52,194 nt of DNA from Bacteroidota bacterium. Its GTDB lineage: Bacteria; Bacteroidota; Ignavibacteria; Ignavibacteriales; Ignavibacteriaceae. Location: positions 1-52,194 of the forward strand of contig JAKAKL010000060.1 of NCBI GenBank assembly GCA_021824565.1, in the 5' to 3' direction. The notes under the pieces are model-generated. The model was given only the letters and a program-made list of their open reading frames with translations, had not been told where the DNA came from and made no database searches. Positions within the stretch are counted from its first letter, which is position 1. The number at the start of each line of letters is the position of its first letter. This document shows, piece after piece, positions 45,017 to 52,194 of the stretch. The position numbers were made by a program, and so were the translations under genes.

Positions 45017-45727
45017 AATGAGCCTCCTTTTCGAGGATTATATAATTTTAAACAAAAATTAGTTAGCTCGCCTCGCTTGTTGAAGCGGGATGAACTTTTG
45101 ATTTATTATTCTTCACGTACGTGCATATCAATAAATTTTCGTATTTATTGCCTCTCACGTTCGTGCATAAGAGTAAATTTTCGTATTTATTGCCTCTCAC
45201 GTTCGTGCATATCAATAAATTTTCGTATTTATTGCCCTTCACGTACGTGCATAAGAGTAAATTATCGTATTTATTGCCCTTCACGTACGTGCATAAGAGT
45301 AAATTTTCGTATTTATTGCCTCTCACGTACGTGCATATGAATAAATTTTCGTATTTATTGCCTCTCACGTTCGTGCATATCAATAAATTATCGTATTTAT
45401 TGTCCTTCACGTACGTGCATATGAATAAGTTACTGTATTTATTGTCCTTCACGTACGTGTATATGAATAAATTATAAAATACACTGAGCTTCGCATTTGA
45501 GAATAAGAATAAATTCTTCAATTTATTGATATTCGCGTTCGGGACTTTGAATAAAATCTTCACTTTATCCATATTCAGTTATAAGTATTGTATTAAACTT
45601 AAAAAAACAGATTACTTTTTAATTTGTATTTCTTCTTCGATTTACAACTGGATAAACTCAAAGGGAATCATTGTTATTTTTCAGCTTTGAGCTTTGTACT
45701 TTTCGTTGTGCCTCTTTCAGGCTTTTT
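45017..45727. other. Gene-free region dominated by a 42-bp array
   Basis: No credible gene is seen. The array covers 45121-45498, with a degenerate extension to about 45560. The ORF of 169 codons at 45063-45572 (minus) and an overlapping plus-strand ORF both consist of 14-residue repeats created by the array. The remaining bases to 45727 are AT-rich. Confidence 0.6.
45121..45498. repeat. Tandem array, 42-bp unit, nine copies
   Basis: The motif gtgcat (gtgtat in the last copy) starts at 45121, 45163, 45205, 45247, 45289, 45331, 45373, 45415 and 45457, exactly 42 bp apart with no indels. Each unit holds two inverted repeats, cacgtacgtg (or cacgttcgtg) and caataaa/tttattg in the better copies, so it can form two small dyads per four helical turns. 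Decayed copies continue to about 45560. There are no unique spacers. Confidence 0.95.
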
Positions 45728-46279: not shown

Positions 46280-49200
46280 TTATTTCAGCAGGACCATCTT
46301 CTTTATTGAAGAATAATCTCCAGCTTTTAATTGATAGAAATAAATTCCGCTTGCAAGATTACTAGCATCGAAAGTAACAGAGTATCTGCCTTGAGATTTA
46401 TATCCGTTAACAAGAGTTCTTACTTCTCTGCCGAGCATATCATATATCTTTAGTGTAACAAAGCCATCATTTGGCATTTGATACGTTATCATTGTTGATG
46501 GATTGAAAGGGTTGGGATAGTTTTGATCAAGCGAATATGATGTTGGCTTTTCTATTGCTGCCGTCATTTGTTCTATCTTTGGAAGTGAAGAGCCATTCTT
46601 TGAGGCAAGCATACTACCATATACATTGTAATCATCTTCGGCAGTTGTCAGCTCTACAGGCGTTGATAGGCTTGACTGATTCTCTATTTCATTTAATAAA
46701 GTTGATGCAGTATTTACATCATTCTCATTGTACAATGCTATATAGAAGTTATTTAGTTCCGCTCTTATTCCAAGCGGAGAATTAGGATTCTTCTTAATTA
46801 TTTCATCATTGACTTTTTTAGCTAAGTCAATGTTACCCTCTTTTAAGTATAAATATGAAAGCAGCAGCTTTTGCTCCTTTGATGCCTTAGAAGGCAACGA
46901 GCTGAAAAAGTTTATTATATCCGGCGTGGTGCTGCTGTCTGCACAATCATAAAGATAGGTATAAGCAGCTTGTTTATCCGGGTGATTCTTTATGTATGAA
47001 ATAAAGTAATCCTTTGCCTCTTTAAGCTTGTTGTTGCTCCTCAAATCGATTCCTGTGAAAAGAGAATCATCTACATCTTGCACACCGGCAGGTGAGCTTG
47101 TAGGATTAACTGCGTTCTGAGTACTTGCAATATGACTTTCAATCTTATCACCTGGAGACATAATTGGTGTTTGCTGCTTTGTCGAAGGCAAAGGATAACC
47201 CGACCATGGGTCTGTTTGTTGATAGGGAGAATAGTTAAAAGTAGATCCGGAGCCTAATGAAAACAATGATGTATTGGGAGGATAATTCCCCCACCAATTA
47301 TAGCATCCGTATAAAGTACTCGGATTACTCGAATATGAAAGACCAACTGCAGTATTAACTGAATTACTATAAATACTATTGTATCCATAAGTATCTCCAG
47401 CAGTAGGGATTCCGAAAGTTGGGTAACTGCTATAATAAACTTCGAGTCCGGCATAACAATTAGTAATACGGTTATTCTTTGCGGGATAGTAAACATTATG
47501 CGAAGTAGGCGAAGAACCCCAAATGGCGCATATACCCCAACTAAATCCTTCTATATCATTTTGTGCGGCTATGCCAGTACCTCCCCCCCCAAAGTATATT
47601 CCAACACCGTGGTGATTTAAATTTATTTTTTTTAGAATGTTTCCGGTGCATGTTACATTAGCCCCATTCTGTACTACAATGCCATGCGCTGTATTAGAAT
47701 TTTCTATTTTATTATTAGTTGCTGAACATCCTGTGCCGCCTGAAAAACTTAATCCACTCATGGAAGAGTTTGTGATATTACAGCTTTGAATACTTACATT
47801 ATTAGTGTTAGTTATATCTATCTCTGTTCCAAACAATAGATTAGCGTAACTAAGAGAAGAACCATTAGCACCCGAGCCACTAAATGTCAACGTACCCCAA
47901 TTTCCAGATACTGCATTAAAGTTTATTAAAGAAGATGGTGTTCCAGTTGCTGTTAAAGTACCTGATACAGTTAAATTCACGTTGCTATTTATATTTATAT
48001 TTGTACCGGGTTGAATTGTAAGAGTTAATCCGCTTGGAACGTATACTGTTCCTGTCAAGGTTATATTACCGGACCATATTTCATTTGAGACAAGAGTTCC
48101 AGAAGTGGTAATACTGCTAACATACTTAGTAAAGGTTGATACATTCCCATTATAATTATCTTTTACATCGCAACGGATAGTAAAACTTTTATTAGTTATT
48201 TGCTGCGAACAAGATGACGAAGAACCAGATTGAATCGGATACCAGGTACTATTTCCAAAATCCTGTCTATACCATGAGTAGGTAAAATTCCCTGAACCGG
48301 TAGTAGGGACGCAGTTCCAGAGTAAATAAGCTCCATTAAAACCCGAAGTGGGTCCAGTGATACTACCAATAACCGGAAGGGCAAAATAAACATATTTATA
48401 CAATGGCGGAAGCTGATAATTGATTGGGTAATTAAGATTCCAGTATGGCGTAATACCTATTTTCGCATAAAATATTCCAATAGCATTTGTCCCATTAGTA
48501 ACATCCCATGGGCCAATTGCATAACCACCTTGGACTCCAGCAGGCCATGAAAATTGATAGCCTCCTTCATAATGCTCAATAAAAGTACCATCTTGTCTAT
48601 ATAAATCTACAGTAGCATTAGAATACGTAGGGATAGTTGCAAAAATTCCAATCATAGGTAACCACCCATGCCAAATCTGACTAACGAGATATGGGTTTAT
48701 GAAATCACAACCTGCTAAATAAGTATTTATTCCATGATAATTATCCCAAGTATCTAAAGTAAATCCGTCTAAATAATCATCACCATTGCTGTTTGACATA
48801 TAAGTGGAAAAAATACCTTGTGGCTTAACCCATTGCTGTTGCCCATCAGCAGTATATCTTACAGAAGCTAAATATCCAGAGACTCCAATACCATCAAAAA
48901 TGTGAAACATTCCATTCGTTTGATCCGAAACGAATAAACCATTCTCAATACCTTGGAAAATGCCTAGTGAATTTAATTTTACAGGATCCTGAAAAGTATA
49001 TGAAACATAGCTACCAATAATTGCATCACCTTGAAAACTTGCGATATTATTTATAATTATAACCCTTTTCTGGTTATTATCAATCAATGCAATCTCTCTG
49101 CCATTGTGATAATAAATCAATATCTTGGAAGGGCCCGAAAAATCTGTCTCCATACCAGAAGAAGGATTTATTACACGAGTAAATTTATTTAAGAATCCCC

Positions 49201-50233
49201 CGCTCCAGTTATATTGCTGTATTGAATTCCCTGCTCTGTCAGCTATCCAAAATGAATCATCTGAAATATCATCTGGTGTTGAGTTATCATCTAAACTGAT
49301 ATCAGCTGCATCAATAACATTCTGAGTTGGAATATACTGAGGAGAAATTATTTTTGAAGAAGATTCGTCATATTTAAGCCTAATAACTTCAGTGTTGTGA
49401 CCTCCCTCCAGCACAAAAATATTTCCAAACTTATCTAGTCCGATACTAGATGCAAACATAAGACTTTGATCACCAGGGTTATCACCATAAGATTTAATCC
49501 ATCCTCCATTGTAGCTTGCATATATTATTCGGTCCCATTGATTGTCCGTAATTACCGAAAAGAAATCATGACCGTTCGTCCATACTACTCTCCCGTCATA
49601 TGGGGAGTTAAACACTGCTTTATTTACATATTGTTGAGTTACTGCCTTGTTTATTGTAGTTAAATATGTGCCTATAGCATCTTCCTGTATAAGTGCAGAA
49701 TTTGAAAATAGAAAACTTGATTGTGTACTTAATATTCGGCCACTATCTTTAGATTTAATTACAGTTTGTTTTATATTATCATAATTCTTTTTGATCACTT
49801 GGGCAAAATCCCTATGTTTGTTAACTATAATTTTAATTAGCAGTCTTGAACTTATTATCTTCCATTTATTTTTAGAATATGAGAGAATTATTGTTTCATT
49901 GCTATGGTAATGAGTAAACTCATCAAACACACCACATTGAATCGTAGCTTTATCTCCTATTATAGAAGTTTTAACACTATCAATATCGATAAATGGTGTG
50001 AAAATTTGGGTTGTGTCCGAAGTTGCTTCATAGCTAGTATCAATTCCATTTGAAAGATATTTTGCAATCATATCTATATTGCCGCTTGAAACTGCATTAA
50101 TTATATCTCTTGTAATCATTTTAAGATCATCAACATATGTATTTTTAATTCTTTCAATAGGTTTTTTATTTATCAATTGTGCGTAGTTAATATTAGTGAT
50201 AAATAATATCAAAATAACATATAATATTTTCAT
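46280..50233 (-). CDS. Large multidomain T9SS-sorted surface protein
   Basis: This is a 1317-residue protein with a signal peptide ending in NYAQ. About 200-460 reads as NHL-like propeller strands (AADISLDDNSTPDD, FWIADRAGNSIQQYNWSGG). About 640-720 is an Ig-like segment (LLWNCVPTTGSGNFTYSWYR). About 735-1010 is a right-handed beta-helix with NITNSSMSGLSFSGGTGCSA and NNRITNCYAGLEVYY. About 1070-1190 is TPR-like (LKEAKDYFISYIKNHPDKQA). The last 80 residues are the T9SS sorting domain, from QNYPNPFNPSTMITYQMP to KKMVLLK. The cargo is expected on the cell surface. A run of eight G (plus-strand C at 47583-47590) lies in the beta-helix. The gene is last of three closely spaced minus-strand genes. 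Confidence 0.88.
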   Translation of the reverse strand: MKILYVILILFITNINYAQLINKKPIERIKNTYVDDLKMITRDIINAVSSGNIDMIAKYLSNGIDTSYEATSDTTQIFTPFIDIDSVKTSIIGDKATIQCGVFDEFTHYHSNETIILSYSKNKWKIISSRLLIKIIVNKHRDFAQVIKKNYDNIKQTVIKSKDSGRILSTQSSFLFSNSALIQEDAIGTYLTTINKAVTQQYVNKAVFNSPYDGRVVWTNGHDFFSVITDNQWDRIIYASYNGGWIKSYGDNPGDQSLMFASSIGLDKFGNIFVLEGGHNTEVIRLKYDESSSKIISPQYIPTQNVIDAADISLDDNSTPDDISDDSFWIADRAGNSIQQYNWSGGFLNKFTRVINPSSGMETDFSGPSKILIYYHNGREIALIDNNQKRVIIINNIASFQGDAIIGSYVSYTFQDPVKLNSLGIFQGIENGLFVSDQTNGMFHIFDGIGVSGYLASVRYTADGQQQWVKPQGIFSTYMSNSNGDDYLDGFTLDTWDNYHGINTYLAGCDFINPYLVSQIWHGWLPMIGIFATIPTYSNATVDLYRQDGTFIEHYEGGYQFSWPAGVQGGYAIGPWDVTNGTNAIGIFYAKIGITPYWNLNYPINYQLPPLYKYVYFALPVIGSITGPTSGFNGAYLLWNCVPTTGSGNFTYSWYRQDFGNSTWYPIQSGSSSSCSQQITNKSFTIRCDVKDNYNGNVSTFTKYVSSITTSGTLVSNEIWSGNITLTGTVYVPSGLTLTIQPGTNININSNVNLTVSGTLTATGTPSSLINFNAVSGNWGTLTFSGSGANGSSLSYANLLFGTEIDITNTNNVSIQSCNITNSSMSGLSFSGGTGCSATNNKIENSNTAHGIVVQNGANVTCTGNILKKINLNHHGVGIYFGGGGTGIAAQNDIEGFSWGICAIWGSSPTSHNVYYPAKNNRITNCYAGLEVYYSSYPTFGIPTAGDTYGYNSIYSNSVNTAVGLSYSSNPSTLYGCYNWWGNYPPNTSLFSLGSGSTFNYSPYQQTDPWSGYPLPSTKQQTPIMSPGDKIESHIASTQNAVNPTSSPAGVQDVDDSLFTGIDLRSNNKLKEAKDYFISYIKNHPDKQAAYTYLYDCADSSTTPDIINFFSSLPSKASKEQKLLLSYLYLKEGNIDLAKKVNDEIIKKNPNSPLGIRAELNNFYIALYNENDVNTASTLLNEIENQSSLSTPVELTTAEDDYNVYGSMLASKNGSSLPKIEQMTAAIEKPTSYSLDQNYPNPFNPSTMITYQMPNDGFVTLKIYDMLGREVRTLVNGYKSQGRYSVTFDASNLASGIYFYQLKAGDYSSIKKMVLLK

Positions 50234-50254: not shown

Positions 50255-51355
50255 TTATTTCTTATCCAAATAATAGTGATTTGATTTAGGGTCTATTCCA
50301 AAAAGATATTGTTGCTTATTTGTTATTTTCCCTTTACCACTTACGTTTTCAATGTAATGAAGAACAAATTTATCAGTTGATGTATACGAAGTAATTTTCT
50401 TTAGGCTTTTGTTAGAGTCTTTAACAATCTTACCTTCTGAGTTAATATGAATCTCGTAAGTGCTCCCTATTTTTGCTCCTACCCTTTCCGTTGCGATTAT
50501 AGAAACACCATTTCTATTTTTAAATGTTAACAATGGCGGAGGTAATCCTGGTTCTTTTGCTAGGAGCAATATGTTGTTATCAAATGTGGAATTAGCTTCT
50601 TCTTTCAATTTAATTCTGTGAGGCGTTGAAAATTCCAAATTTGTTTTGTCAAAAACACAATAAGCCAAACTGTCTGCCTGCGGCCAAATTATTTTGTTTG
50701 GATTGTTATAATCTAGTGGCGTTCCTAAAAACAATAAATGATTTTCATCTAAAGTTTCTAATTTATTGAAATAAATCAGGTTCTTATATATTTTGTTTGC
50801 TGTCTTAGATATATTTTGATTTAAAATAACATTTCCATTTGAATCGATTACTGTATAAGAAATTTTTCCTGCCCATGATATAATATAAATATTATTTATT
50901 GAATCTAAGCAAGAAGAATATCCGTTAGCAACCTCCAAATCATTAATATTCTTTTTTAATATACCATTATTTTTAAATTGGAAAAATTGTAAATTCCCAT
51001 CAGGAAATCCATTGAGAAAAAAAACAAAAGCATTATTATTAGAATTAATTCCTATAGCAAAGTCTCTGGGATTACCTAAGTATTTACCCAATTCCTGCTC
51101 TGAAAGCACTATACCAGTAGAGTCTAATACATCATAATAAACATGTTGATAATCATCTTTGACCATCTCTTGTTTAGAATATACTATGTGAACTTTGCCT
51201 TCTATGTCAACCAACGCATCGAATTTTAATATGTCCTTAGATTTTACAAAATTATCGATAATATTTATTTTGTTCATCCCTTCACATAATGAAATAATCA
51301 TTATAGACATAAACAATACTTTTCTTAAAAAAGAATTTATAATTTGAGTTTTCAT
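50255..51355 (-). CDS. Secreted protein of unknown function
   Basis: This is a 366-residue protein. An N-terminal hydrophobic segment (FLRKVLFMSIMIISLCEG) can act as signal peptide. The rest is beta-rich with repeated motifs such as VDIEGKVHIVYSKQE and SINNIYIISWAGKISYTVID, which look like propeller blades of about 45-50 residues. No catalytic residues or T9SS tail are visible. It lies 11 bp after the metalloprotease and 21 bp before the large T9SS cargo on the same strand, so the three are probably one transcript. I do not recognise a family. Confidence 0.7.
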   Translation of the reverse strand: MKTQIINSFLRKVLFMSIMIISLCEGMNKINIIDNFVKSKDILKFDALVDIEGKVHIVYSKQEMVKDDYQHVYYDVLDSTGIVLSEQELGKYLGNPRDFAIGINSNNNAFVFFLNGFPDGNLQFFQFKNNGILKKNINDLEVANGYSSCLDSINNIYIISWAGKISYTVIDSNGNVILNQNISKTANKIYKNLIYFNKLETLDENHLLFLGTPLDYNNPNKIIWPQADSLAYCVFDKTNLEFSTPHRIKLKEEANSTFDNNILLLAKEPGLPPPLLTFKNRNGVSIIATERVGAKIGSTYEIHINSEGKIVKDSNKSLKKITSYTSTDKFVLHYIENVSGKGKITNKQQYLFGIDPKSNHYYLDKK

Positions 51356-51366
51356 TTTGACCTCAA

Positions 51367-52092
51367 TTATTGTCCAATATTATTTCCTACTGATACTGTT
51401 TTAACTCCTAATAAATCACGAGTATTTAAAAAATCTAACGATTCTTGAAGCACTTCCTTGTAAACTGAGTACGAATTATCAAAAAGTGGTTCATGCATCA
51501 AATTTGGTACACTATCAGAGTGCTTGTATATGCCCATAGAATGTCCTAGTTCATGTGCAATTACCCATGCATAAACCCACGTTGAAGTCCAACCCTGAGC
51601 GTTTGGTATTTCATTTTCTATATTATTGCTAAAAATAATGCAACCTGTTCTATTTAAATAATAAGAACTGCTTTCGCCAGTTCGCCAAGAAGGATCACCA
51701 GATGCCAAATTCGCACAATCAAAGAATCCGTACCCCTCACCTCCATAGCCATAATGTATATTAATACCGTAGAGCCCATCTGTACCCAAAGAAGCATCTG
51801 CAGATTTTGCTATAAAAACATGAATATAGTTAGCTGGTTTGTTAACAGAACTAAGCAAATCTTCAGCTTGATGCAAGTTAAGACTTGCAGGAATTCCACT
51901 TGAGTTAATAGGGCTTCCTTTGACAATCGTTAAATAAACACCATACGTACTCCAGATACTCTTAACCTCATTTATAATATTGTCCAAGTCAGAACTTCTA
52001 ATAAAGTCTGAAGAATAATCTATTTGAACAAATACATTTTTTTGCTGACTTGATTGTATGTCTTCAGTATAATCTGCAATATTATATAATGC
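51367..52092 (-). pseudogene. Zinc metalloprotease gene, 5' end lost to an IS insertion
   Basis: The reading frame is open from 52092 to the stop at 51367, with coding character upstream of the first start-like codon (TTG at 51987), for example KNVFVQIDYSSDFIRSSD. No ATG, GTG or TTG lies between 52092 and that TTG. An in-frame stop at 52093-52095 falls in the IS3-like DNA. The protease part contains HELGHSMGIYKHSD, and VPNLMHEP looks like a Met-turn. The spacing is HExxHxxGxxxH, one residue longer than the classical metzincin motif. The secretion signal must have been in the lost part. A shortened product from the TTG cannot be excluded. Confidence 0.75.
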
Positions 52093-52194
52093 TTAAGTTG
52101 GAAAGATACTTTTGAAAAATTAACTTATGTATAACAAAACTTCAGGAGTATCAAAATGCCGTCAGAAAAAAGAAAACACAGCGCAGAGTTCAAA
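52090..52194 (+). mobile_element. Left end of an IS3-family insertion sequence (continues beyond the window)
   Basis: A TG at 52090-52091 is a plausible left end, since IS3-family ends begin with TG. The metalloprotease frame stops immediately inside this segment, and the orfA start lies 66 bp further on. The inverted repeat and target duplication cannot be verified without the right end, so the boundary is approximate. Confidence 0.6.
52156..52194 (+). CDS. IS3-family transposase OrfA, N-terminal fragment
   Basis: AGGAG lies seven bases before the ATG at 52156. The visible residues MPSEKRKHSAEFK match the usual start of IS3-family OrfA, a helix-turn-helix protein of about 100 residues that binds the IS ends and is joined by frameshifting to the OrfB integrase. 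Only 13 codons fit in the window, so the family call rests on this motif. It faces outward from, and opposite to, the disrupted metalloprotease gene. Confidence 0.75.
   Translation, partial: MPSEKRKHSAEFK

Follow-up and report, generated by a model that had tools for sequence, protein, structure and literature searches.

An IS3-family insertion sequence (IS) has almost certainly transposed into a gene of 530 codons, at about codon 293, and duplicated the target bases ATTA. The gene codes for a metalloprotease-like protein that is exported and probably lipid-anchored. The window, that is, the whole 52,194-bp stretch of DNA analysed here, is the entire contig C127, one of 148 contigs in its genome (G000), and it ends inside the IS. 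Under the proposed event, the 5' part of the gene, with the signal and a Big_1-like region, and the region upstream of it would now lie on contig C147, while the 3' part, with the zinc-site region, would lie on C127 together with the two genes that follow. The sequences of the two contigs display a shared IS end, a matching duplication and a frame restored by joining. One IS copy probably joins C127 and C147 physically, and the insertion would have inactivated the protease.

The left end of the IS is defined by repetition. The 110 bp from position 52085 to the contig end are identical at six places in the genome, all of them contig edges (C127, C39, C131, C72, C68, and C15), which is more than chance. 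Because this identical DNA begins at 52085 next to six different flanks, the border of the IS (TATAATGC, plus strand, 52085–52194, cut by the contig end) is placed there and not at 52093. The protease frame runs on the minus strand from 51367 and, as the first-pass annotation had stated, is open up to 52092. That annotation also put an in-frame stop in the next codon, which is correct (TAA, 52093–52095), and had IS DNA start at the same point, which is not. The last native base of the gene is 52084; the IS supplies two of the three codons at 52084–52092 completely and the third in part. Within the window, the frame has its earliest possible start at TTG 51987, which would give 206 aa. A transposase OrfA start had been noticed next to the insertion, and it is indeed present on the plus strand: ATG 52156 lies behind a ribosome-binding-site-like AGGAG read directly from the sequence (52144–52148, plus strand) and opens 13 codons (MPSEKRKHSAEFK, 52156–52194) before the contig ends. 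The complete related copy, 1429 bp long at positions 2150–3578 of contig C184 in genome G006, has a similar OrfA start (MKTEKRKFTAEFK), and its left end matches that of the window at 82% over 110 bp.

Joining the window to C147 restores the gene. The 3' half (minus strand, 51367–52084; 238 codons plus stop) carries the zinc-site-like motif HELGHSMGIYKH and a later NLMHEP. The first-pass annotation had expected the other half of the gene beyond the IS, with a 3–4-bp target duplication, and both were found: the 5' half occupies C147:116–994 on the minus strand (ATG at 994; the frame of the window continues into 120–994), and flank comparison places the two ATTA copies at 52081–52084 and C147:116–119. 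With one ATTA copy removed, the frame crosses the C147–window junction without a stop and comprises 530 codons. Thirty-six combinations were tried for an open frame (nine right flanks, each with 0, 3, 4, or 5 bp dropped), and an ATG-containing stretch of 295 open codons ahead of the junction arose only for C147 when 4 bp were dropped. Next came C80 at 5 bp, with 184 codons, but that flank is paired with C68 through a 4-bp duplication of its own. The other eight right flanks gave at most 51 open codons each with 4 bp dropped. A tblastn search with the joined protein hit two places in the genome, which are the two halves (seven candidates, three scored). The composition of the two contigs is also alike: the tetranucleotide correlation between C127 and the first 20 kb of C147 is 0.99, compared with 0.96–0.98 for five pieces of relatives, and their GC contents are 0.369 and 0.366. 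The signal, said earlier to be separated from the protease by the IS, does lie on C147, together with about 290 residues. The joined protein starts with a hydrophobic segment whose last residues are LLAC and which, by eye, resembles that of a lipoprotein; behind it lies a stretch that matches Big_1 below threshold (21.4 bits, with the cut-off at 34.9).

The right ends of the IS were sought by a pattern search of the same genome, using an end derived from two copies, that of G006 and an old one on C3. Of 11 matches, nine are exact and at contig edges, one is exact in the C3 copy, and one, on C95, carries three mismatches. In the 96 bp common to them, the nine right ends do not differ. The one that was translated, at C35, ends OrfB with ...NYWKEKNQAA, where the G006 copy has ...DYWNSINQAA. 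Among the 54 pairs of six left and nine right flanks, five share 4 bp; shifted controls share 4 bp in 0.41 pairs on average and reached five in 2 of 3481 cases. Besides C127–C147 (ATTA), these are C131–C35 (ATAT), C72–C29 end (CAAC), C68–C80 (CAAT), and C15–C133 (CATC). The sixth left end, on C39, pairs with the start of C29 by TTACA, so that the duplication is 4 bp in five of six pairs and 5 bp in this one alone. C127 also has 3 bp in common with the flank at the start of C29, but the frame there is just 39 codons. Since left ends pair with right ends by their duplications, the C127 insertion appears as one of several recent insertions. Three right ends are without a left partner (start of C125, start and end of C132). 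Starting at the IS edge, 419 codons are open at the end of C132, and another gene may be cut there.

Two readings compete with insertion into an intact gene, and the pairing bears on one of them. The junction could have arisen in assembly, as a chimaera or through a break at some unrelated repeat, with the protease gene free of the IS in most cells. The contig does end in a repeat, with only about 110–126 bp at each left edge; such short repeat edges are typical of a short-read graph break, and no read or contig spans the IS, which counts against the link between C127 and C147. To judge by its relatives, the genome is probably a MAG in which strains may be mixed, and this too counts against a single-IS link. 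But a chimaera is not expected to yield a matching ATTA duplication and a restored frame, nor left ends of which five in six pair one-to-one by 4 bp, and this reading is extremely unlikely. It is also very unlikely that the IS landed in a pseudogene: neither half contains a stop or frameshift, and together they form one frame of 530 codons, although the protease is without a convincing homologue in the genomes searched, so that constraint is not measurable. The preferred reading remains the insertion of one IS copy into the protease gene, and the first-pass interpretation is thus supported. The first-pass annotation had judged the event recent from the lack of other damage, and this view gains support: the gene halves are otherwise undamaged, and the IS ends show no differences, over 110 bp among the six left and over 96 bp among the nine right copies. 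These identities fit recent activity of the IS.

Membership of the IS3 family, named in the first-pass annotation, holds through the copies in relatives. The 110-bp end is matched in 20 of 97 genomes searched, including the window's own. The complete G006 copy encodes OrfA with HTH_Tnp_1 and, in the -1 frame, OrfB with an integrase core, and has a run of nine A and G close to the end of OrfA. Its termini are TATAATGCTT... on the left and ...AAGCATTACA on the right. The order of OrfA, an A-rich slippery run, and OrfB in -1 recurs in three related copies (G006:C184 and the genome's own C95 and C60), and it is from these that the two-frame organisation is read, the window's own element being assembled for at most about 126 bp per end. 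The fused OrfA-OrfB of G006 scores 183.6 bits against the NCBIfam IS3 model (cut-off 160) and 149.6 bits against the IS481 model (cut-off 224). OrfB alone falls below both cut-offs (145.2 and 139.5 bits, respectively). The transposase of the relatives (OrfA, frameshift, OrfB) thereby supports placing the window element in the IS3 family. The body of this element is absent from the assembly by two OrfB searches, which returned diverged matches on C95, C60, C3, and C5 only.

IS3-family elements duplicate 3–5 bp of their target and have inverted repeats ending 5'-TG...CA-3'. The element's left end is TATAATGC in six of six copies and starts with TA, compared with the usual TG; its right end is TGTAATGC in nine of nine copies and reads TG inward. 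Compared with the family in general, the element differs from the usual form in its TA terminus. A sister IS whose left end is TGTAATGCTTAAGTTGGAAATGGAC, with TG, occurs at four contig edges of the same genome (C17, C18, C24, and C82). The inverted repeats of ISSau2 are described as ending 5'-TG...CA-3'. With its related copies, the element resembles two-frame members of the IS3 family, such as ISSau2 as described (PMC5771124, PMC4433286), in an OrfA with HTH_Tnp_1 that carries 8–9 consecutive A and G towards its end, an OrfB with an integrase core in the -1 frame, and a short target duplication. A literature search on Ignavibacteria and insertion sequences found, judged by titles, no paper on such an insertion.

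The interrupted gene was called a metalloprotease because it contains a HELGH motif, and the sequence makes this assignment likely. Metzincins carry the motif HExxHxxGxxH. The protease half shares the HExxHxxG core with secreted metalloproteases of the matrixin/metzincin type, and its later NLMHEP resembles a Met-turn. Unlike in these enzymes, the third histidine of HELGHSMGIYKH is preceded by an additional residue, and the match to Pfam Peptidase_M10 (20.2 bits) is below the gathering cut-off of 24. An AlphaFold2 single-sequence model of this half (mean pLDDT 36.8) was too poor for a fold search. Sequence matches in the PDB (28; E 0.078–0.66), including fragilysin and matrix metalloproteinases, were not significant, and no function was drawn from them; 27 of the 28 span little beyond the zinc-site stretch, and 9s3s_A spans residues 68–150.

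The closest relatives of the host are uncultured Ignavibacteria. In the genome_contigs set, the GuaA of the window is matched best (80 of 315 matches kept) by MAGs filed as Bacteroidetes, Ignavibacteriales or Ignavibacteriaceae, the first listed being 90% identical. Neither the protease fragment (E <= 0.001) nor gene 2, the next gene behind it, has a match in the 96 relatives searched, and there is therefore no IS-free comparison. A search for a protease homologue in the genome_contigs set gave 22 peptide-pattern stretches, none of them confirmed. Among 395 genomes of the phylum, including this one, matches were limited to its own two halves and six weak partial ones in six other genomes, the best of the latter covering 46 residues of the N-terminal part (E 1.3e-4). 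No relative was found in which the gene naturally begins at 51987, a result that is uninformative given the lack of a convincing homologue in the genomes searched. In nine pieces of relatives (14–20 kb each), window-side matches stop at about 43.9 kb, past which there are just two short matches of 94 and 110 residues, both to gene 3, and C147-side matches begin at about 2.1 kb. The protease region and its putative operon thus look like a lineage-specific stretch. The conserved blocks flanking it on both sides sit on two different contigs of genome G001, far from the contig ends; synteny gives no support as independent proof of the C127–C147 link, which G001 neither proves nor excludes. A tandem array that looks like a minisatellite lies at 45113–45473: a 42-bp unit is repeated 8.6 times with 90% matches, and both strands carry long open frames there.

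Two further genes follow the protease on the minus strand. Gene 2 (50255–51355; 366 aa) lies 11 bp behind the protease stop and has no family match in Pfam or NCBIfam. Gene 3 (46280–50233; 1317 aa) lies 21 bp behind gene 2 and combines a beta-helix region with a C-terminal sorting domain of T9SS type A (TIGR04183, 46.6 bits, cut-off 23; PF18962, 44.3 bits, cut-off 27). On the basis of this spacing, the three genes may be co-transcribed as a putative operon. Upstream of ATG 994 on C147 are 125 bp and then a minus-strand frame of 195 aa (1120–1707), regulator-like by eye. As the first gene starts on C147, the IS would stand between that start and genes 2 and 3, which would lose their normal promoter. 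A first guess is that polarity silences the operon. IS elements can also activate outward transcription, and the left end of the IS could drive genes 2 and 3, along with a signal-less 206-aa protease fragment from TTG 51987, without any silencing. This is unlikely: genes 2 and 3 are still intact open frames, as such drive would allow, but OrfA reads away from the operon and the visible 110 bp of the IS contain no outward sigma-70-like site by a sigma-70 model, with most of the IS outside the assembly and Bacteroidota-type promoters outside the scan. Promoter-like sites in 51200–52194 number three, compared with 5.3 expected by shuffling, and none is within the IS. A terminator-like hairpin is present on the operon strand inside the protease half (51665–51683; one found, 0.3 expected by shuffling).

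At three of the other five resolved sites, too, long frames reappear when the flanks are joined in this way, which brings the sites with a cut frame to four of six. The copy at the starts of C39 and C29 cuts a pectinesterase gene (57.5 bits in the front half), and another cuts a lipoprotein-like frame with no Pfam match in either half. The copy at the ends of C15 and C133 cuts a 710-codon frame with a reverse transcriptase (RT) domain (YADD; RVT_1, 85.3 bits), the front part of which matches PADLOC defence-type RT models, 51 in all and with up to 418 bits; the best is RT-Toprim_I-C (residues 86–401). At the start of C131 and end of C35, the copy precedes the ATG of an exported-type gene by seven bases, three of which lie past the duplication, and would therefore part this ATG from its ribosome-binding site; the gene has Sortilin/BNR matches and stands behind another of similar type. 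One site has no long frame across it. Three of the four cut frames (protease, pectinesterase, and lipoprotein-like frame) have an export-type N-terminus. By a crude script, an N-terminal hydrophobic segment is found in three of the four cut genes, compared with 12 of 58 frames (11 of 43 in the window and 1 of 15 in 20 kb of C147). Coming from four genes, this bias toward exported genes is only a hint. It is very improbable that this IS group prefers genes for exported proteins and, through its insertion and loss, acts within the population as an on-off switch for parts of the secretome.

Gene disruptions of this kind are well known and routine, and this one affects an uncultured bacterium from the environment. 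That the rest of the protease gene exists is now settled, a question that a first reading of the window could merely pose, and a recent transposition best accounts for the break. Beyond this locus, IS ends with matching duplications can link the contigs of a fragmented genome.
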